A DNA stretch of 64,000 nt from Loktanella sp. M215. Its GTDB lineage: Bacteria > Pseudomonadota > Alphaproteobacteria > Rhodobacterales > Rhodobacteraceae. The notes below the pieces were generated by a model. It was not told where the DNA came from and made no database searches. It saw only the letters and a program-made list of their open reading frames with translations. Positions 52,922-64,000 of the stretch are shown here, one piece after another; position 1 is the first letter of the stretch; every line of letters begins with the position of its first letter. The stretch covers positions 616,001-680,000 of the forward strand of contig NZ_WMEA01000001.1 of assembly GCF_021735925.1 (NCBI RefSeq). The letters are read 5' to 3'. The position numbers and the translations under genes were made by a program.

Positions 52922-53083
52922 TCAGGCGGCGTGCCGACGCAGCAGCGCGATCGTCGCCGCAACCACTATAACCGCAGCACCGGCGATCAATGCTGCGGGG
53001 GAATCCGCGTGGATCGGCGTATCACCATGAGCCAGCGCGGGGCTGGCGGCGGTGAGGGCAATCAGGGTCGATACGTATTTCAT
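52922..53083 (-). CDS. 53-residue secreted/membrane microprotein of the guanidine operon
   Basis: Encodes MKYVSTLIALTAASPALAHG, then DTPIHADSPAA, then a hydrophobic helix (LIAGAAVIVVAATIALL) and RRHAA. A signal peptide with an ALA cleavage site would leave a mature N-terminus beginning HGDTPIH, a possible metal ligand set, anchored by one helix. ATG 53083 overlaps the stop of the His-rich gene (ATGA) and AAGGAC lies upstream. No family is recognised. Position and composition suggest metal handling; this is inference. Confidence 0.7.
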   Translation of the reverse strand: MKYVSTLIALTAASPALAHGDTPIHADSPAALIAGAAVIVVAATIALLRRHAA

Positions 53084-53529
53084 GCGTGGTCCTTTCGGGA
53101 GGCAGAGTGGTTTTGCAGAAAGCTGCGCAGGTCGGTGACGTGCTTGGCGTCAAGCGAGACATAGACGAGCCCCATGTTCGTGCGTTCCGTCACCATCGGG
53201 CCGGGATAGGGCAAATAGCTGAGTTCGCGCGACCCGAACGACGGTGACGCCGTGCCGACCTGCCATTCGGTCGTCAGTTTCACGTCCACAAGTTTCATCG
53301 TTGGTCCACCCGCGGGGGCCGGGATTTCCAGCGGCACACCGGCAATGCGCAGATAGGACATCTTGTCCTTGGCCGCGATAAAGCCATCGATGAACTGCGT
53401 CGTCAGAACGTGCAACTCAGCCGCCGCGTCCGCCTCTTGCAGATGGGAATGCAGATGGTCTGCTGGGTCGTGGCTGTGGTTGTCGCCGTGGTGATGGTGG
53501 TGGTGATCCGGTGCGTTATCGTGAGGCAT
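53080..53529 (-). CDS. histidine-rich protein of the guanidine operon
   Basis: 149-residue protein. The first 40 residues contain 13 histidines, including six in a row (MPHDNAPDHHHHHHGDNHSH). The rest (FIDGFIAAKDKMSYLRIAGVPLEI...TMKLVDVKLTTEWQVGTASPSFG...ERTNMGLVYVSLDAKHVTDL) is a compact domain I do not recognise. Overlaps the guanidine hydrolase gene by 14 bp and the microprotein by 4. His-rich tails are typical of nickel chaperones such as UreE and HypB, so nickel delivery to the hydrolase is a reasonable hypothesis; not demonstrated. Confidence 0.82.
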   Translation of the reverse strand: MPHDNAPDHHHHHHGDNHSHDPADHLHSHLQEADAAAELHVLTTQFIDGFIAAKDKMSYLRIAGVPLEIPAPAGGPTMKLVDVKLTTEWQVGTASPSFGSRELSYLPYPGPMVTERTNMGLVYVSLDAKHVTDLRSFLQNHSASRKDHA

Positions 53530-54763
53530 TGGACCACCGCTTTCCTTCGAATTCGCCATGCGGGATGACGACCGGCTTGTCCATGTGCCGCTTGTGAGCG
53601 CCCATTTTGCCCGATGCGACCAGCGATCCCAGCACATCCACGATCACGCGGGTGCCCATCAGGGCCGTGATCTCGGACTGGTCGTAGGGCGGTGCGACCT
53701 CGACAAGCTCCATGCCGCAGATACCCTCGGCGGCGACTTTCGACACCAGCCCCAAGGCTTCGCGCGGCAGGAAGCCACCGGGTTCGGGCCAGCCGGTGCC
53801 GGGGACGAACCCGCAGTCGATGCTGTCGATGTCAAAACTCAGATAGACCATGTCGACGCCGTCCCAGGCCATCTCCAGCGCCATTTCGGCGGTGCGGTCG
53901 ATGCCCATCTTCTCCATGTCGCCCATCGTGATGATGTTCGTCTCGCGCTCGCGCGCGACCTTGACCGCGTCGCGGGGCACCTGCCAGCCGCCAATGCCGA
54001 TCTGCACGAGGTTCTTGGCCGACACGTTGGGCATGTTGGTCGCGTGGAACCACGGCGTCGTGTGCATCCGTTCGTCCAGATCCTTTTCCTGAATATCGGC
54101 GTGGCGGTCGAAGTGGATGATGCCGATCTTCTTGGACGTGCATTGGGCAATACCGCGCAGGCAGGGAAAGCCGATGGAATGGTCGCCGCCGATCATGATG
54201 GGCAAGGACCCCGACGATGCGACATGGCTGACGGCGCGGCTGATCTGGTCGAAACTCTTTTCGATATTGGCGGGGATCGTGAACACGTCGCCCGCATCGC
54301 ACAGCGTCATCTGTTCGCGCAGATCGACAGCCATTTCATAGTTGTAGGGCGTATAAAGTGCGCTGATCTTGCGCACCCCCTGCGGACCAAAGCGTGTGCC
54401 CGCGCGGTAGGTCGTGCCACCGTCGAAGGGGATGCCCAGCACGGTCGCGTCGTAGTCGCCGACCTCGGTCACATCCTCGGCGTAGGGTGCCTTCAGAAAG
54501 GTGTTGATGCCCGCGTAGTGGGGCAGCTCGCCCCGGGCGAAGGTCGGGATCGACTTGTCCTCGATGCTGTCGGCCCCGGTCAGGCCCATGCGCAAGGCCC
54601 ATTTCTTCTCCTGCGCCCAGCCAGAGCCGGGAATGTCTGCCTCTTCCTGCATGGCCTTCCAGCCGCGCAGCTGGCTCAGGTCCGGGTGGTGATGGCGGCG
54701 GGCGTCATGCCCCATGTCGCGCGGATGGTGCGACCGGGTCCGGTCACGCGGGGTGGTAAACAT
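53516..54763 (-). CDS. gdmH: guanidine hydrolase, GdmH-like ureohydrolase
   Basis: Ureohydrolase-fold enzyme of 415 residues, longer than agmatinases through an N-terminal extension that is itself His-rich (SHHPRDMGHDARRHHHPDL). Metal ligands: GGDHS (H195), HFDRHAD (D219, H221, D223) and SFDIDSID (D311, D313). The sequence and length match the Ni-dependent guanidine hydrolase group (Sll1077-like), which makes urea and ammonia. The upstream guanidine-I riboswitch strongly supports this over agmatinase. ATG 54763 follows AAGGAGG at 6 bases and overlaps the ATPase gene by 20 bp. Confidence 0.88.
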   Translation of the reverse strand: MFTTPRDRTRSHHPRDMGHDARRHHHPDLSQLRGWKAMQEEADIPGSGWAQEKKWALRMGLTGADSIEDKSIPTFARGELPHYAGINTFLKAPYAEDVTEVGDYDATVLGIPFDGGTTYRAGTRFGPQGVRKISALYTPYNYEMAVDLREQMTLCDAGDVFTIPANIEKSFDQISRAVSHVASSGSLPIMIGGDHSIGFPCLRGIAQCTSKKIGIIHFDRHADIQEKDLDERMHTTPWFHATNMPNVSAKNLVQIGIGGWQVPRDAVKVARERETNIITMGDMEKMGIDRTAEMALEMAWDGVDMVYLSFDIDSIDCGFVPGTGWPEPGGFLPREALGLVSKVAAEGICGMELVEVAPPYDQSEITALMGTRVIVDVLGSLVASGKMGAHKRHMDKPVVIPHGEFEGKRWSNASR

Positions 54764-55511
54764 GGATATCCTCCTTGAGGGTCTGGAAAGGAATGCCGCC
54801 GTCGCGGGCGTCGAAATCGTAGGTGATGGTCGCCCCGTGCAGGTTCGGGTCCTGCGGATCCCAGCGCACCTTGTCGAAGACCAGCACGCGATCGCCCAGC
54901 TTGAACGCCTCGCCCAGATCATGCGTGACCATGAAGACGGTCATCTGTGTCTGCGCCCGCAACTCGGTCAGGAAATCGTGCATCTGGATGCGCGTGCCGG
55001 GGTCCAGCGCGCCGAAAGGTTCGTCCAGCAGCAGCACCGATGGCTTGGCCACCAGCGCCTGCGCAATGGCCAGACGTTGCTGCATGCCGCCCGACAGGGT
55101 CGCCGGATACTGGTCCGCGACATGATCAAGGCCGATGCGGGCCAGTGTCTCGTCTGCCCGCGCCAGTGCGCGGCGCCGGTCCGCGCCCCAGAACCGGCCC
55201 CAACCGCGCCGGAAGCTCTCTCCTGCGACGATATTTTCGCGCACGGTCAGGTGGGGAAAGACTGAATAGCGCTGGAACACGATGCCACGGTCCAGCCCCG
55301 GTTCGCGGGCAGGGGCCGCGCCGTTGATGCTGATGTGGCCCCGCGTCGGCGTTTCCTGCGCCAGCAGCAGGCGCAGGAACGTGGATTTGCCACAGCCCGA
55401 CGCGCCAACGATGCTGATGAACTCGCCCTCGGCCACGTCGACGTTCACGCGCTCGATGATCGGGCGGCGGCCATAGCTCTGGAACAGGTTTTCGACGTGA
55501 ACAAAGGTCAC
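54744..55511 (-). CDS. ABC ATPase of the guanidine operon (NitT/TauT-like)
   Basis: ATPase, 255 residues. Walker A GASGCGKST, Q-loop FQRYSVFPHLTV, signature TLSGGMQQRLAIAQAL, Walker B LLLDEPFGALDP and switch THDLGEA. Subfamily resembles TauB/SsuB. Its cargo is inferred as guanidine because it sits between the riboswitch and the guanidine hydrolase. Overlaps the permease gene by 4 bases. Confidence 0.91.
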   Translation of the reverse strand: MTFVHVENLFQSYGRRPIIERVNVDVAEGEFISIVGASGCGKSTFLRLLLAQETPTRGHISINGAAPAREPGLDRGIVFQRYSVFPHLTVRENIVAGESFRRGWGRFWGADRRRALARADETLARIGLDHVADQYPATLSGGMQQRLAIAQALVAKPSVLLLDEPFGALDPGTRIQMHDFLTELRAQTQMTVFMVTHDLGEAFKLGDRVLVFDKVRWDPQDPNLHGATITYDFDARDGGIPFQTLKEDIHVYHPA

Positions 55512-56320
55512 AGGCCCGCCTCCGCCCAGGGGAAAGCCTTGCGCGACAGGGCCCGCAGCGCCCAGTCCATGACGAATGCCAGCAGCGTGATCCAGATCAC
55601 GTAGGTCAGGATCACATCCATCGCGAGGTAGCGGCGCACCAGAAAGATGCGATAGCCGAGGCCCGCATCCGCCGCGATCGCCTCTGCCGCGATCAGGAAC
55701 AACCAGGCGGGGCCAAGCGACAGGCGCACGGACTGGATCAGCCGCGGCATCAGTTGCGGCAGCGCCACGCGGACCGCGATGACCCAGGTCGAGGCGCCAA
55801 GGGTCTGCGCCTTGACGATCAGTTCCTGCGGCACCTCCAGCACCCGCTGGGACAGGTCGCGGATCAGAAACGGCAAGGTGCCGATAACGATCAGCACGAC
55901 CTTGGACAATTCCCCCAACCCGAAGACGATGAACAGGATCGGCAGCAGCGCCAGAGGCGGGATCATCGACACGACGGCCACGAACTGCGCCAGCAGGGCG
56001 CGCGCCATCGGGATCAGCCCGATCAGCAGCCCGAACATCAGCCCGATGGCCGACGATATGCCGACCCCCAGCAGCAGCCGTTGCAGGCTGGCCCCTGTAT
56101 CCTGCCAGAACAGGATGTCGCCGCTGCGGCGGTCAGGTTCCGAGATCAGCCGTCCGGCTGTCGCCATGACCGTATCGGGGGCTGGCAACAGCTTGTCCGC
56201 CGGGTTGGCGGTCAGGCGGATGTCGGACGCCACGGCGTAGGCGATCAACACCGCAACAAAGGGCAGCAGCGCCAGAACGACGACCGTCGGGCGGCTGGGT
56301 GCCCGGTTGATGATCCGCAT
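55508..56320 (-). CDS. ABC permease of the guanidine operon
   Basis: TauC/SsuC-type inner-membrane permease, 270 residues. Helices around TVVVLALLPFVAVLIAYAVAS, ISSAIGLMFGLLIGLIPM and MIPPLALLPILFIVFGLG; coupling loop VPQELIVKAQTLGASTWVIAVRVALPQLMPRLI. Begins 24 bp after the binding-protein gene. One permease gene only. Confidence 0.91.
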   Translation of the reverse strand: MRIINRAPSRPTVVVLALLPFVAVLIAYAVASDIRLTANPADKLLPAPDTVMATAGRLISEPDRRSGDILFWQDTGASLQRLLLGVGISSAIGLMFGLLIGLIPMARALLAQFVAVVSMIPPLALLPILFIVFGLGELSKVVLIVIGTLPFLIRDLSQRVLEVPQELIVKAQTLGASTWVIAVRVALPQLMPRLIQSVRLSLGPAWLFLIAAEAIAADAGLGYRIFLVRRYLAMDVILTYVIWITLLAFVMDWALRALSRKAFPWAEAGL

Positions 56321-56344
56321 GACGGCGCGCCCCGACGGGTCGGA

Positions 56345-57391
56345 TTACAACGCGCCGTCCGCCGCCATCTGCATATAGGTGGTGTCATAACGGAACATGA
56401 CGTTGTTCGCGTCGCCGCTGGTCGCACCGTCCGGATAGGCCACACCGACGAAATCCGCCGATGGCGCGCCCTCTCCAAGGATGCCCTTGTCGAACAGGAA
56501 GTCTGCCACGCTGGTCATCGTGCCGGGCAGCGCCGCGTCTGCGGTGAACGCCACGGCGGCGTCGGGGTCGTAGAACATCTGCGTGGCATCCAACTGCGCG
56601 GTGTAGCCTGCCAGATCGGTGCCAGAAGCTTCGGCCATCGCCGTCAGCGCACCCTCATCGCCTGCGGCCATCAGCGCCATGACCTCGTACCACGCACCCG
56701 CGACGGCCTTGCCGAAATCGGGGTTGTCTGCCAGCGTCTGGGTGTTCACGACCATCAGGTCGATGATCTCTCCGGGGATGTTGGAACTGTCGAACAATTT
56801 GTTTGCGGCAGGGTCTTCCATGATTGTCGACACCAGCGGGTTCCACGTCACGACCGCCTGCACGTCGTCGGTGGCAAAGGCGGCGACCATATCGGCGTCG
56901 GACGTATTCACGACCCCTGCAAGATCAGCCTCTGCAAGGCCCGCAGACTCCAGCGCCCGTGCCAGCAGGTAGTGCGACACCGACAGCTCCACCAGGTTGA
57001 CGGGCATGCCAGCCAGCGTCGTCAGATCACCTTCGCCTTTCAGGATGACCGCATCGTTGCCGTTCGAATAGTCGCCAACAATCAGCGCGGTCGTGTCAAC
57101 ACCGCTGCCTGCCGGGATCGAGAGGGTATCCATATTCGTGGCCGAAACGCCGTCAAACTGACCGGCCGTATATTGGTTGATCGATTCGACGTAGTCATTG
57201 ATCTGCGTGATCTCGACCGTGATGCCGTATTTTTCGGCCCATTTGTCCATGATACCGCTGTCGGACAGATAGCCCCACGGCATCCAGCCCGCATAGATCG
57301 ACCAGGCAAGTTTGAAATCGGTTTTGGCCTCGGCGTGGGCGCCGGTGGCAAGGCTCAGGACGAGGGCGGTCGTGGTGATCAGCTTGTTCAT
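56345..57391 (-). CDS. ABC substrate-binding protein of the guanidine operon
   Basis: NMT1/TauA-type periplasmic binding protein, 348 residues. Signal peptide MNKLITTTALVLSLATGAHA; mature protein begins EAKTDFKLAWSIYAGWMPWG. Start 57391 is chosen for GGAG at 6 bases; ATGs at 57403 and 57418 are alternatives. First gene after the riboswitch. Ligand inferred to be guanidinium; aromatic and acidic residues (IYAGWMPWGYLSDSG) could form a cation pocket. Confidence 0.9.
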   Translation of the reverse strand: MNKLITTTALVLSLATGAHAEAKTDFKLAWSIYAGWMPWGYLSDSGIMDKWAEKYGITVEITQINDYVESINQYTAGQFDGVSATNMDTLSIPAGSGVDTTALIVGDYSNGNDAVILKGEGDLTTLAGMPVNLVELSVSHYLLARALESAGLAEADLAGVVNTSDADMVAAFATDDVQAVVTWNPLVSTIMEDPAANKLFDSSNIPGEIIDLMVVNTQTLADNPDFGKAVAGAWYEVMALMAAGDEGALTAMAEASGTDLAGYTAQLDATQMFYDPDAAVAFTADAALPGTMTSVADFLFDKGILGEGAPSADFVGVAYPDGATSGDANNVMFRYDTTYMQMAADGAL

Positions 57392-57467
57392 ATCGGTCTC
57401 CATCACGTTTGCATTCATGGAATGACCGCGTAGAAAACGGATGCGGCGCGCGGGTCAAACCGGCGCA

Positions 57468-57568
57468 GTAGCCTCCCGGGATTTTCCCCCGCCGTGTATC
57501 GCACCGGAATTTGCCGGTTCGACGATATCTCTTGGACCTGACCCTTGTGCGGCGGAACCCTAGACATC
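57468..57568 (-). promoter_or_regulatory. guanidine-I (ykkC) riboswitch
   Basis: The minus-strand leader contains the conserved blocks of the ykkC class in order: CTAGGGTTCCG (57553-57563), GGTCCAAGAG, ACACGG, then GGGGGAAAATCCCGGGAG. Spacing and sequence match the guanidine-I aptamer. It lies about 80 bp upstream of the binding-protein start and should switch the whole operon on when guanidinium binds. The expression platform is not clear; no strong T-run hairpin is seen. Confidence 0.92.
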
Positions 57569-57579
57569 CTGCATCCCCA

Positions 57580-57833: not shown

Positions 57834-58097
57834 ATGAGGAAAAGCTGTTTCACCGAAGCGCAGATAATCGGGATGATCAAAGAGCAGGAGGCTGGTTTGC
57901 CGACGGCTGATCTGTGCCGGAAGCATGGCTTGGGTCCTGCCACGTTCTACAAGCTGAAGGCCAAGTATGGCGGGATGGATTTGTCTGACGCCAAGCGGCT
58001 GAAACAGCTCGAAGATGAGAACGCGAAGCTGAAACGCCTGGTGGCAGATGTCATGCTGGACAATGTTGTGCTGAAGGATCTCTTGGGAAAGCCCTGA
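57834..58097 (+). CDS. IS3-family transposase OrfA
   Basis: 87-residue DNA-binding subunit with a helix-turn-helix (FTEAQIIGMIKEQEAGLPTADLCRKHGLGPATFYKLKAKYGG) and a leucine-zipper-like tail (LKQLEDENAKLKRLVADVML). Appears intact. Normally fused to OrfB by frameshifting, but OrfB here is broken. Confidence 0.92.
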   Translation: MRKSCFTEAQIIGMIKEQEAGLPTADLCRKHGLGPATFYKLKAKYGGMDLSDAKRLKQLEDENAKLKRLVADVMLDNVVLKDLLGKP

Positions 58098-58905
58098 CGA
58101 CGCCGATGCAACGGCGGGACGCAGCGCTGCGGGATCATCAGATCTCTCAACGCCGGGTCTGCGTCCTGATCGGTGTCGAACCGAAAACCGTGCGGTGCGA
58201 AAGGCCGCCCGATAACCCGGAGATCCGTCTGGAAATGAACAAGATTGCTGAGAAACGTCGCCGGTTCGGTTATCCCGCTGCCCGGCAGGCGATTGCGCAG
58301 CAATCTGCCGAGAGGGGCGCATTGGCGTCCTGCTGGAGCGCGTGGGCATGATTATGAACGAAAAGAAGCTCTATCGGATTTACCGGGAAGAGGGCCTGTC
58401 AGTGCGCCGCCGTAGAGGCCGGAAACGGGCGCGAGGCAGCCGCACACCAATGCCAATGCCATTGCGCCCGAACCAGCGCTGGTCCTTGGACTTCCTGTCC
58501 GACACTTTCGGGGCCTGTCGCAAATTCCGCATCCTGGCGGTCGATGACGATTGTTGGCGCGAAAACCTATGCTTGGTCCCCGACACCAGCATCTCCGGGG
58601 CCAGGGTCGCACGAGAGTTGGATGCACTAGTCCGGATCTATGGGAAACCCGCTTGTATCGTTTCCGACAACGTCCTAGCTCGGGAACAAAACGCTGTTTA
58701 GGGCGTCAGATCACATGGCATCCGAGCTACCGGATACCTTTTGAATTGTTGCCCAGGCGGGCTCCGCCGTCAAGAAGTGGTCTCTCCCATAGCAAATACA
58801 GGGTCGGCCACGATGCCGCCCCTCACCGTCCTTAAGACGAGATCCTAAATCCCAAGCGGAAGGCCCGAACATTATCTACGAGGTCAGGAACCTGCCTCCA
58901 CGGCT

Positions 58906-60168
58906 CTACAGAGAGGGGTCCTTCCGCACGGGCTCGTCCCCCTCGAAGAAGGGACGATAGGGTTCGCCGGATTTGATCACGGCGTGAATGGTGCGGGCCA
59001 TCTTTGCGGCGATGGCTGTGTAAGCCTTGCGGCGCAAATCCGGGTTGTGACGATCTTGCGCAATGTAACGCTCGAACTTGTCGCGGAAGCTGTTGGCCTT
59101 CTTCATGACCGCCGTCTGCCCTGCAAGCCACAAAGTGCGGCGCAAACGGGCGTTGCCGTATTTGGAGATCTTGCTTCGACCGCGGAACATGCCGGACTGG
59201 ACGGTTGCCAGATCCATGCCGCAAAACTTCAGAAACTGCCGGTGATGACGGAAGCGGCGCAGGTCACCGGTCTCGGCGGGGATCGTCAGGGCGTTGATCG
59301 GCCCGATGCCGGGAATGGTGCGCAGCAGCAGGTAATCGGGACGATCGCCGAGCAGTTCGACGGCACGGCCTTCGATGGCATTGCGTTGGCGGATCAGGCT
59401 TCTGCCTTCGGCCAGCATCATGCGGAACATCCTGATGGCGTCAGAATCCGGCGACACGGGCAGCCCCGCGGAAGTCTTCGCCGTCTCGTAAATATCTGAC
59501 AACATGAGGGTCTTCTCGACCTTGCGTCCAACCACTTCCCAGGCCGCCTTGGTGAACTCATCCTTGGTCAGGGCAGATATCATGTGTGGAGACGGGAACA
59601 TCTCGAGGAAGGCCAGGAACCAGTCGGTGCGCGAGCTGCGGTGGAAGCGGTCGGCCTCGGGAAAATAAAGTGGCAGATAGTGGGTCAAAATCCGATGCCA
59701 CAGCTCGGTCTTGGACCGCGACACCGCATCATGAGTCTTGGACAATTCCTGAATGTCATTCGTACCGGCGACCATCGGGTCCTGGAAGATCTGCACCGCG
59801 CCGATTTGCAGCATGTGCAAGATGACTTGCGCATCCTTCGGATCATTCTTGTCCCAGCTGTTGTGCAGCGCCTCGCGTGTGCGGGCGAGGGCGACCGAGG
59901 ATACCAGCTTCAGGTCGAACCCGGCGACGCCGAGATGATACATCAGCACACGGTGATAGTTGCCGGTGGCCTCAAACCCGATCCGGACCGGCAGGCCATA
60001 TTCCCGCAAGATCGCGATCAGGCGCATGAAGTCGTCGGTGGAATTGGTGATCGTCATGCGCCGCCGCCGCGTCTTGCCCGGGACGGCAATCAGCACCTCG
60101 TGCCGGTGTTTGGAAATGTCGATGCCTACCAGAACGCGGGCATCCGAAGTATGTTCAACCTTGGCCAT
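58906..60168 (-). CDS. IS110-family transposase
   Basis: 420-residue recombinase. N-terminal RuvC-like DEDD domain ([49 protein letters not shown]) and C-terminal Transposase_20 domain ([26 protein letters not shown]...[12 protein letters not shown]). ATG 60168 (MAKVEHTSD) follows AGGAG. Appears intact and possibly active. Confidence 0.94.
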
Positions 60169-60222
60169 GGCCGGTCTCCTCTGTGGTGTGGTTCGCAAAA
60201 CCACCATAGAGACCCGAGACCC

Positions 60223-60274
60223 GGTTATGGCCGCCTGCTGCGCAATTTTGGAGGCTGCGCAGGCGGCCATAACC
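60223..60274. ncRNA. strong stem-loop in the IS110 end, candidate bridge-RNA part
   Basis: GGTTATGGCCGCCTG (60223-60237) and CAGGCGGCCATAACC (60260-60274) form a perfect 15-bp stem with a 22-base loop, between the transposase start and the element boundary. IS110-family elements transcribe a structured bridge RNA from a non-coding end. Whether this hairpin is part of that RNA, or the bridge RNA is in the other end (58672-58905), is not settled. Confidence 0.45.
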
Positions 60275-60524
60275 TTGAACGGCACTTCATTCCCAACATG
60301 CTACGGAACGGAGTTCACCAGCAAAGCGATCCTGAAATGGGCAAACGACAACAAGGTCGAGTGGCATTACATCGATCCCGGCAAGCCACAGCAGAATGGT
60401 TACATTGAATCATTCAACGGCAGCTTGCGCGACGAATGCCTCAACGAGGAAATCTTCGACAGCCTGACCGACGCACGCCGAACGCTGAGGTGCTCCCCTT
60501 CCCTTGGACAGGATCTGGCGCTTT

Positions 60525-61401
60525 CTAAGCTCTGATCTGCTCCTGCTGATCGGGTTGCGTTGCTTCGACTTTCAGCGAGTAGACTACGGCCGGTGGTTGG
60601 CCGCCAAGGGCTTTGTGCGGGCGGCGGTGATTGTAGAACCCCATCCATGTCCGGACACCCGCGCGGGCCTGAGACCCGGTCTCCCAGACATGCAGATAGA
60701 CGCACTCGTATTTCAGCGTGCGCCACAGGCGCTCGATGAAGATGTTGTCCAAGTAGCGGCCCTTGCCATCCATCGATATACGGACGCCCGACCGCCGCAG
60801 GCGGTCTGTCCAAGCAAACGATGTGAACTGCGATCCCTGATCGCTGTTCATGATGTCAGGTGGCCCGAACCGATAGATTGCCTCGTTCAGCGCGTCGACG
60901 CAGAAGTCGGCGTCCAGCGTGTTCGAGATCCGCCGAGGCCAGAACCATTCGGGTGTGCCAGTCCATGATCGCCACCAGATAGAGAAACCCTCTGCGCATC
61001 GGCAGGTAGGTGATGTCCACGCACCAAACCTGATTGGGCCGCTCTACGCGCAGCCCGCGCAAGAGGTAGGGATAGGTCTTGTGCCCCTTCGCCGGCTTGC
61101 TGGTGTTGGGTTTCTGGTAGATTGGAATCAAACCAATCAGGCGCATAAGCCGACGGATGCGCTTTTCGTTCACCGCGTGTCCCTCGTTGCGCAGGTGCCA
61201 CGTCATCTGGCGCACGCCGAAGAAGGGCGTCTCCAGGAATTGCACGTCGATCAGCCGCATCAGCGCGAGGTTCTGCTCCGTCTCACCCTGCGGCGTATAG
61301 TAAAACGACGACCGAGAAACCTGTAGCAGCGCGCACTGCTGGCCAATCGACAGGTCCGGATGGTCGCGCTCGACCATGCTGCGCCTCACTTCCCGCCCCA
61401 A
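60525..61401 (-). pseudogene. IS3-family transposase OrfB with a frameshift
   Basis: From about 61401: MVERDHPDLSIGQQCALLQV, HTH_21, then the integrase core VWCVDITYLPMRRGFLYLVA and HTRMVLA, where an extra C (GCCTCGG instead of GCCTGG) near 60940 shifts the frame. The rest (DALNEAIYRFGPPDIMNSDQ, then LDNIFIERLWRTLKYECVYL, NHRRPHKALGG) continues in the next frame. All catalytic DDE parts exist but in two frames. Confidence 0.87.
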
Positions 61402-62380: not shown

Positions 62381-62457
<77 letters not shown>

Positions 62458-62528
62458 ACAGGGTGTTTTAAATCGTTTGAGAGATACAGGTTGAACGTTT
62501 GGGTTCAACCACGGGTGTTTCTTACTAG

Positions 62529-62644
62529 GTGTGGCAATGACTTACTCTCCCACGTCTTAAGACGCAGTACCATCAGCGCTGTGGCACTTAACGGCCGAGT
62601 TCGGGATGGGATCGGGTGTTTTGCTCACGCTATGATCACCACAC
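62529..62644 (-). rRNA. rrf: 5S ribosomal RNA
   Basis: About 116 nt. Terminal stem GGTGTGG / CCACACC; conserved CCCGATCCCATCCCGAAC loop and GGTACTGCGTCTTAAGACGTGGGAGAGTA region, typical of Rhodobacteraceae 5S rRNA. Lies between 23S and tRNA-fMet. Confidence 0.95.
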
Positions 62645-62867
62645 CAAGAAAGAAACACCGGCGGACGCACCCGTGTGCGTCCGCCGGGTGGCAGAGCACG
62701 TTCGCAAAGCAAATGTGCAGCCACTCAGCAGAACACTTCGGTGCATCTACCTATGTTTGTCATCAGCGGCCTGCGTTTTCACGCGGACCGTCGTTCAAGC
62801 CAAGTACGGCTAATGTTGTGTATGTATTATGATTTGGGTCAGTCGAAGTCTCGCTTCTACTGGATCA

Positions 62868-64000
<1,133 letters not shown>

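Follow-up and report, generated by a model that had tools for sequence, protein, structure and literature searches.

Operons are known in which a nickel ureohydrolase gene is accompanied by genes for helper proteins. In Synechocystis, as the published accounts of its GdmH operon describe it, a guanidine-I riboswitch, an ATP-binding cassette (ABC) importer, the nickel-dependent guanidine hydrolase GdmH and genes for two accessory proteins, the HypA- and HypB-like GhaA and GhaB, stand together (PMC12186494; PMC12930504). The metformin hydrolase operon, which comprises hypA, hypB, two ureohydrolase genes and hupE, unites a nickel ureohydrolase with accessory genes and a HupE transporter (PMC11399263). 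The comammox guanidine paper describes GdmH as nickel-dependent and calls the loading of nickel in the absence of HypA and HypB chaperones unclear, an open question (PMC11410670). Here we analyse a stretch of 64,000 nucleotides from Loktanella sp. M215 (contig NZ_WMEA01000001.1, positions 616,001 to 680,000), referred to in full as the window, whose operon at 52922-57574 shares the riboswitch, the importer and a GdmH-type hydrolase with that of Synechocystis but has no HypA or HypB. Instead it encodes a His-rich protein, here termed HisR, which has no detectable sequence relation to either of them; a microprotein gene is often added. Based on gene order, gene overlaps, co-occurrence, conservation and the fact that HypA and HypB are not detected near gdmH, we think it reasonably likely that HisR is a dedicated GdmH accessory protein for maturation or nickel delivery and that the microprotein has a metal-handling role at the membrane; the steps that we infer are the binding of nickel, the contact of HisR with GdmH and the insertion of metal.

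The hydrolase gene (gdmH, 53516..54763, minus strand) encodes 415 residues of the arginase family (PF00491, 258.8 bits). By sequence, the protein is closest to the two solved guanidinases (7esr/7oi1, 548.6 bits; 9fek, 534 bits), far above the other solved ureohydrolases, the best of which scores 169.7 bits. Guanidine specificity has been assigned to a Thr and a Trp (PMC11410670), which in our own mapping of the published numbering, by alignment to 7esr, fall within the conserved GTTY and GTGWP motifs of the window enzyme. Of the 104 loci in which GdmH was matched, some of them truncated, 93 have the strict motif pair. Nickel is presumably the metal of the window enzyme. Its N-terminus contains His residues (RRHHHPDL, in the stretch at 54640-54763), and an HHP(D/E) motif lies near the GdmH N-terminus in 77 of 79 loci (L007-L086), where it is possibly a docking or receiving site.

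Behind gdmH, and overlapping it by 14 bp, follows the gene for HisR (53080..53529, minus strand), a protein of 149 residues with a His-rich N-terminal tail and a predicted alpha/beta core. The gene for a 53-residue microprotein (52922..53083, minus strand) overlaps the HisR gene by 4 bp in turn, and gdmH itself overlaps the ATPase gene of the importer by 20 bp. The preliminary description of this DNA had named a riboswitch, an ABC importer, GdmH, a 149-residue His-rich protein and a 53-residue peptide, with overlaps of 20, 14 and 4 bp among the last four genes; our searches bear out each of these elements, and the overlaps agree with the gene coordinates.

The association of HisR with gdmH extends far beyond the window. 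A scan of public genomes with a 21-member HisR profile confirmed 125 loci, and the best 80 were kept. In 79 of these, gdmH lies immediately upstream of HisR at a gap of at most 377 bp (it is partial at the contig edge in L046 and L060), and the 80th locus starts at a contig edge. Among all HisR loci examined, each spanning up to about 9 kb on either side of HisR or gdmH and less on short contigs, the arrangement is found in 97 of 98, L035 and L126 being the same locus. Most often, the two genes meet in an overlap of 11 bp, as in 46 of the 79 loci that have gdmH.

To avoid selection by HisR, gdmH was also searched for independently in samples of the order, the class and the phylum. In the order sample (292 genomes), 28 genomes carry GdmH and 27 carry HisR at a threshold of E<1e-50, each HisR lying no more than about 200 bp from gdmH (Fisher p 3e-37); two partial, weak matches (E 2e-4) were left out of the HisR count, and the GdmH match of the 28th genome, which has no HisR, spans only residues 7-329 of 415. 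Fourteen genomes of the class sample (385 genomes) have GdmH at E<=1e-60. The 11 at E<=1e-200 all adjoin HisR, and the three at 1e-63 to 1e-83 have no adjoining HisR. This association gives p 1e-19 for the 11 and p 5e-17 for all 14; the cut-off for close GdmH that defines the 11 was set once the jump from 6e-201 to 5e-83 had been seen. No HisR was found at the loci of the weak GdmH matches G126, G111 and G054 (L111-L113), with L112 and L113 limited by contig ends. All seven genomes with GdmH in the phylum sample (398 genomes) come from the window's class, and in all seven it adjoins HisR. Homologues lying mostly away from guanidine genes would, according to the preliminary description, have refuted its idea; we find a conserved family tied to gdmH in these samples (97 of 98 loci; 27 of the 28 order genomes). 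Two further genomes of the class sample have a HisR match and no gdmH: the match at L131:7103-7360 is partial and has one stop, and that at L132:9643-9921 is a near-complete core next to an importer gene that is truncated, gdmH not being found in 11.5 kb.

One locus, L128, suggests that it is the enzyme, not the transporter, to which HisR is tied. There, gdmH and HisR come after a riboswitch (10355-10244), with no match to a substrate-binding protein or permease and with the only ATPase match 5 kb off. The riboswitch was checked in 17 loci and is present in 10 of the 13 with HisR (missing in L048, L105 and L107) and, among the four without HisR, in L116 alone.

The preliminary description had also remarked that no HypA/HypB-type maturation proteins lie beside gdmH, and well beyond the window, too, none was detected near it. 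No HypA was found in 105 gdmH/HisR loci with a model that finds nine of nine control regions, although eight of the nine were used to build it and one control is independent. Queries with UreG and other G3E proteins, which recover a GTPase in eight of the nine control regions, found no HypB-like GTPase near gdmH in the 105 loci; the matches in L105, L106, L108 and L116 fit UreG or MeaB. The window's whole genome gives no match to HypA (PF01155). It gives five to the cobW family, four of which best match CobW, a COG0523-type GTPase, UreG and MeaB, with none of the four reaching the HypB cut-off, and the fifth of which is weak and partial. Some HisR-bearing genomes do have HypA elsewhere, with scores exceeding the cut-off in 9 of 47 in one set and in 5 of 21 in a second, in all five on contigs other than that of gdmH; the second set includes three genomes with weak GdmH, two without gdmH and one genome common to the first set. 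These data therefore do not bear out a replacement of HypA by HisR across the genome.

The window microprotein has a signal-peptide-like start ending in ALA, followed by HGDTPIH, one hydrophobic stretch and an Arg/His-rich end, the signal peptide and helix being assigned by inspection of the sequence and by a hydropathy filter rather than with a dedicated predictor. A search with this sequence matched only seven other proteins. Its Pfam matches are weak and below cut-off (DUF202, E 0.006; Gram_pos_anchor, 0.04), and HupE/UreJ (PF04955) is not among the families matched by the microproteins. Open reading frames (ORFs) of 50-77 residues with a similar plan (a signal-peptide-like start, then His, one hydrophobic stretch and, as a rule, a basic end) lie behind HisR in 42 of 93 loci and occur in 29 of 1680 random 270-bp windows, a rate and control that are descriptive, the filter having been written after seeing examples. 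The overlap with the HisR gene is exactly 4 bp in 39 of the 42. In three loci, L115 and L120 (both Sinorhizobium fredii) and L129, the gene directly behind HisR, in the microprotein's place, encodes the nickel permease HupE (PF04955, 157.1 bits in L115). These loci thus resemble the metformin hydrolase operon in their HupE gene, with the difference that HisR occupies the place expected for HypA/HypB. HupE is found anywhere in the genome in 23 of 36 gdmH-bearing genomes and was not found in the window's genome.

A parallel to the microprotein is provided by DUF6732 (PF20506), found with a score above cut-off in 47 of the 140 order genomes searched. This peptide of about 70 residues likewise has a signal-peptide-like start with His right behind it and one hydrophobic stretch, and both kinds of gene overlap or directly precede a gene for metal insertion, putatively so in the case of HisR. 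A CbiX-type gene starts directly after DUF6732 in 28 of 30 loci (L145-L174), and CbiX, the cobalt chelatase of B12 synthesis, was confirmed by Pfam in all three loci tested; the window's own genome also carries the pair (L175:4815-5018). We regard the DUF6732 peptide, from its gene context, as a candidate cobalt-handling peptide, and the parallel places such peptides at cobalt and nickel sites. The two differ in that the window microprotein has no match to DUF6732 at E<=1. A resemblance at E<=1 is seen in 12 of 37 aligned microproteins (36 of the 42 plus the window's own), L042 reaching 28.3 bits against a gathering score of 27. Homology between the two was considered and rejected: with a DUF6732 alignment drawn from 18 of the 30 loci, the hhalign probability of 96% applies to no more than the signal peptide and the residues at the start of the mature peptide, at a score of 45.8 against 33-43 in 60 column-permuted controls. 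With the similarity so confined, we speak of a parallel rather than of kinship. HupE behind HisR and the DUF6732/CbiX arrangement point the same way, towards the handling of nickel or cobalt. That the microprotein is unrelated to nickel and instead serves the guanidine importer, as a small membrane subunit or as a modulator, seems to us rather unlikely. Short one-helix peptides often modulate transporters, and here peptide and importer share one operon. However, the microprotein gene overlaps that of HisR and not those of the importer, His comes right after the presumed cleavage site, the similar DUF6732 precedes CbiX, and HupE can replace the microprotein.

HisR itself is, judging from its relatives, a genuine, unnamed conserved family. 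A protein search matched 1400 of 1417 candidate proteins at E<=0.001, and among the best 120 of the 1400, which are those listed, the names are hypothetical or uncharacterised protein. Across 46 diverse members, no convincing Pfam or NCBIfam match was obtained (best E 0.014 and 0.0011). The window protein matches no Pfam family, and HypA (PF01155) is not among the eight families encountered over the 46 members; neither the window protein nor any of the 46 matches a P-loop GTPase (cobW/HypB), and a single member matches the UreE model, at E 0.78 only. Structure models of the window protein and of a tail-poor relative agree on a long helix, a short helix, five strands and a terminal helix, and both give the tail low confidence; these two models find no confident match in the PDB, which is no proof of a new fold. 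No paper on HisR or DUF6732 was found in the open-access literature searched by title or abstract opening, a coverage with most subscription papers outside it, and the term DUF6732 was found in no paper of that literature.

The division of HisR into tail and core is instructive. Residues 1-40 (53410..53529, minus strand) contain 13 His, the remainder of the protein contains three, and Cys is absent; model confidence in this tail is low to middling (block means of the predicted local distance difference test, pLDDT, of 54-76 in the window model). The tail commonly begins MPHD, with P, H and D each in 37 of 41 sequences, and over 93 loci the residues before the last 104, variable in length, hold a median of 12 His (range 1 to 27). 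Within the core, F46, D55, L60, L80, P96, P109 and Y123 are invariant in the 41 sequences (the alignments, of 46 and 41 rows, were drawn from the 98 loci and the listed proteins). The tail is nearly gone in L106 (3 His), L107 (4) and L108 (1), where the core is retained. The core therefore appears to be the part that stays constant and does the work, with the tail as an amplifier, and it is the folded core, rather than storage, that seems essential. The His stretches of HypB and UreE act as amplifiers, and in chaperones of this type a folded core with a variable His-rich tail serves one nickel enzyme, a design to which we liken HisR. Unlike them, HisR has no family match, belongs to no P-loop family and bears its His-rich part at the N-terminus. 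A loss of the tail where HypA is present was considered as an explanation and rejected: in the second set of genomes above, three of the five that are tail-poor (L103, L106, L107, L108 and L110) carry HypA, but in all nine HypA-bearing genomes of the first set the first 45 residues of HisR hold 6-20 His.

The same features bear on two other roles for HisR. We consider it improbable that HisR is a GdmH subunit with a structural or regulatory task (a stabiliser, assembly factor or activity modulator) in which metal binding by the tail is secondary. The adjoining, overlapping genes and a conserved core devoid of conserved His or Cys would suit such a subunit, whereas the recurrence of His-richness in most members and the frequent presence of HupE or a His-bearing peptide next door would not; the Nitrospira inopinata guanidinase, though of another clade, is a homohexamer (PMC11410670). 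Slightly less probable still is an Hpn-like cytoplasmic store or buffer, whose tail would soak up Ni2+ during GdmH synthesis with no direct action on GdmH: the density of His in a tail of variable length fits a store, but the conserved part is the core of about 100 residues with its seven invariant positions, the tail falls to 1-4 His in L106-L108, and a store would not need one-to-one pairing with gdmH. The preliminary description had proposed that HisR and the microprotein form a nickel delivery or storage pair. Both small genes do recur behind gdmH where HypA/HypB is not detected; storage, because the tail dwindles where the core is kept, is unlikely to be the main role, and the microprotein, present in 42 of 93 loci, is not obligatory, so that the two do not form a fixed pair.

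Several observations weigh against a dedicated accessory role for HisR and its microprotein. No His or Cys of the core is conserved in 80% of the 41 sequences, the tail can shrink almost to nothing as described above, and in 51 of the 93 loci the microprotein is either missing or not recognised. Two class-sample genomes have a HisR match without gdmH. GdmH relatives outside the clade, in Rubrobacter (L116, with riboswitch, and L118) and actinomycetes (L117 and L119), have neither HisR nor HypA/B detected nearby, and the N. inopinata guanidinase was reported to be active when made in E. coli with no chaperone, although its nickel sites were filled only in part, with 0.42 Ni per subunit (PMC11410670); together these suggest that GdmH may not strictly need a chaperone. 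The literature on metformin hydrolase chaperones is split. In one account, co-expressed chaperones had no significant effect on activity, yet a chaperone knockout did not grow (PMC11271267), and another study found chaperone dependence (PMC11399263).

If HisR is a GdmH accessory protein, we propose that its action proceeds as follows. Guanidine would open the riboswitch, leading to synthesis of the importer and GdmH, and HisR would be made in step with GdmH through translational coupling right behind gdmH. Its His-rich tail, starting with MPHD, would collect Ni2+, and the core would then make contact with GdmH to fill or stabilise its two-metal site, acting in place of the cyanobacterial HypA/HypB-type pair. 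The microprotein, where present, may be a membrane-anchored His peptide that faces the periplasm and brings Ni2+ to or through the inner membrane, an orientation and role that we infer, and in some relatives HupE would fill its place and serve nickel at the membrane. A bolder version of this proposal appears doubtful to us, namely that HisR is a single-protein, GTPase-free nickel insertase of undescribed fold that alone matures GdmH, that together with the peptide it makes up a nickel route with two sides, capture in the periplasm and insertion in the cytoplasm, and that exported peptides of the DUF6732 type do likewise for CbiX.

Upstream of gdmH, the operon is headed by the guanidine-I riboswitch aptamer (RF00442, 57471..57574, minus strand; covariance model 71.1 bits against a gathering score of 63), from which importer genes, gdmH, HisR and microprotein follow in this order on the minus strand. 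The importer consists of a substrate-binding protein of the TIGR03427 type, named putative urea ABC transporter (56345..57418, minus strand; 515.9 bits, cut-off 333.9), a permease (55508..56320, minus strand; PF00528, 71.8 bits) and an ATPase (54744..55511, minus strand; PF00005, 119.3 bits); by its gene context, we take it to be a guanidine importer. Because the window's genome encodes urease (UreC, UreG), guanidine could pass via urea to ammonia. An ORF at L105:2210-3919, upstream of the guanidine operon, is urease alpha by eye, and together with the UreG-like match at the same locus it is in keeping with such a route. Similar ORFs of about 260-270 residues were seen downstream of HisR or the microprotein in L014, L062 and L086. 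Upstream of the window operon, 57834-60535 is by eye an IS3-like element split by an IS110-like transposase gene (58906-60285), and the minus strand at 62384-64000 holds a tRNA, a 5S and the 3' part of a large-subunit rRNA.

HisR stands nearly one-to-one with gdmH in the sampled alphaproteobacteria, from Sinorhizobium fredii to many Rhodobacterales. The family may explain how GdmH is supplied with metal in marine and soil alphaproteobacteria that do without the usual helpers, and HisR could raise the activity of recombinant guanidinase. More broadly, nickel delivery through HisR may take its place as a third route next to the Hyp and Ure systems.

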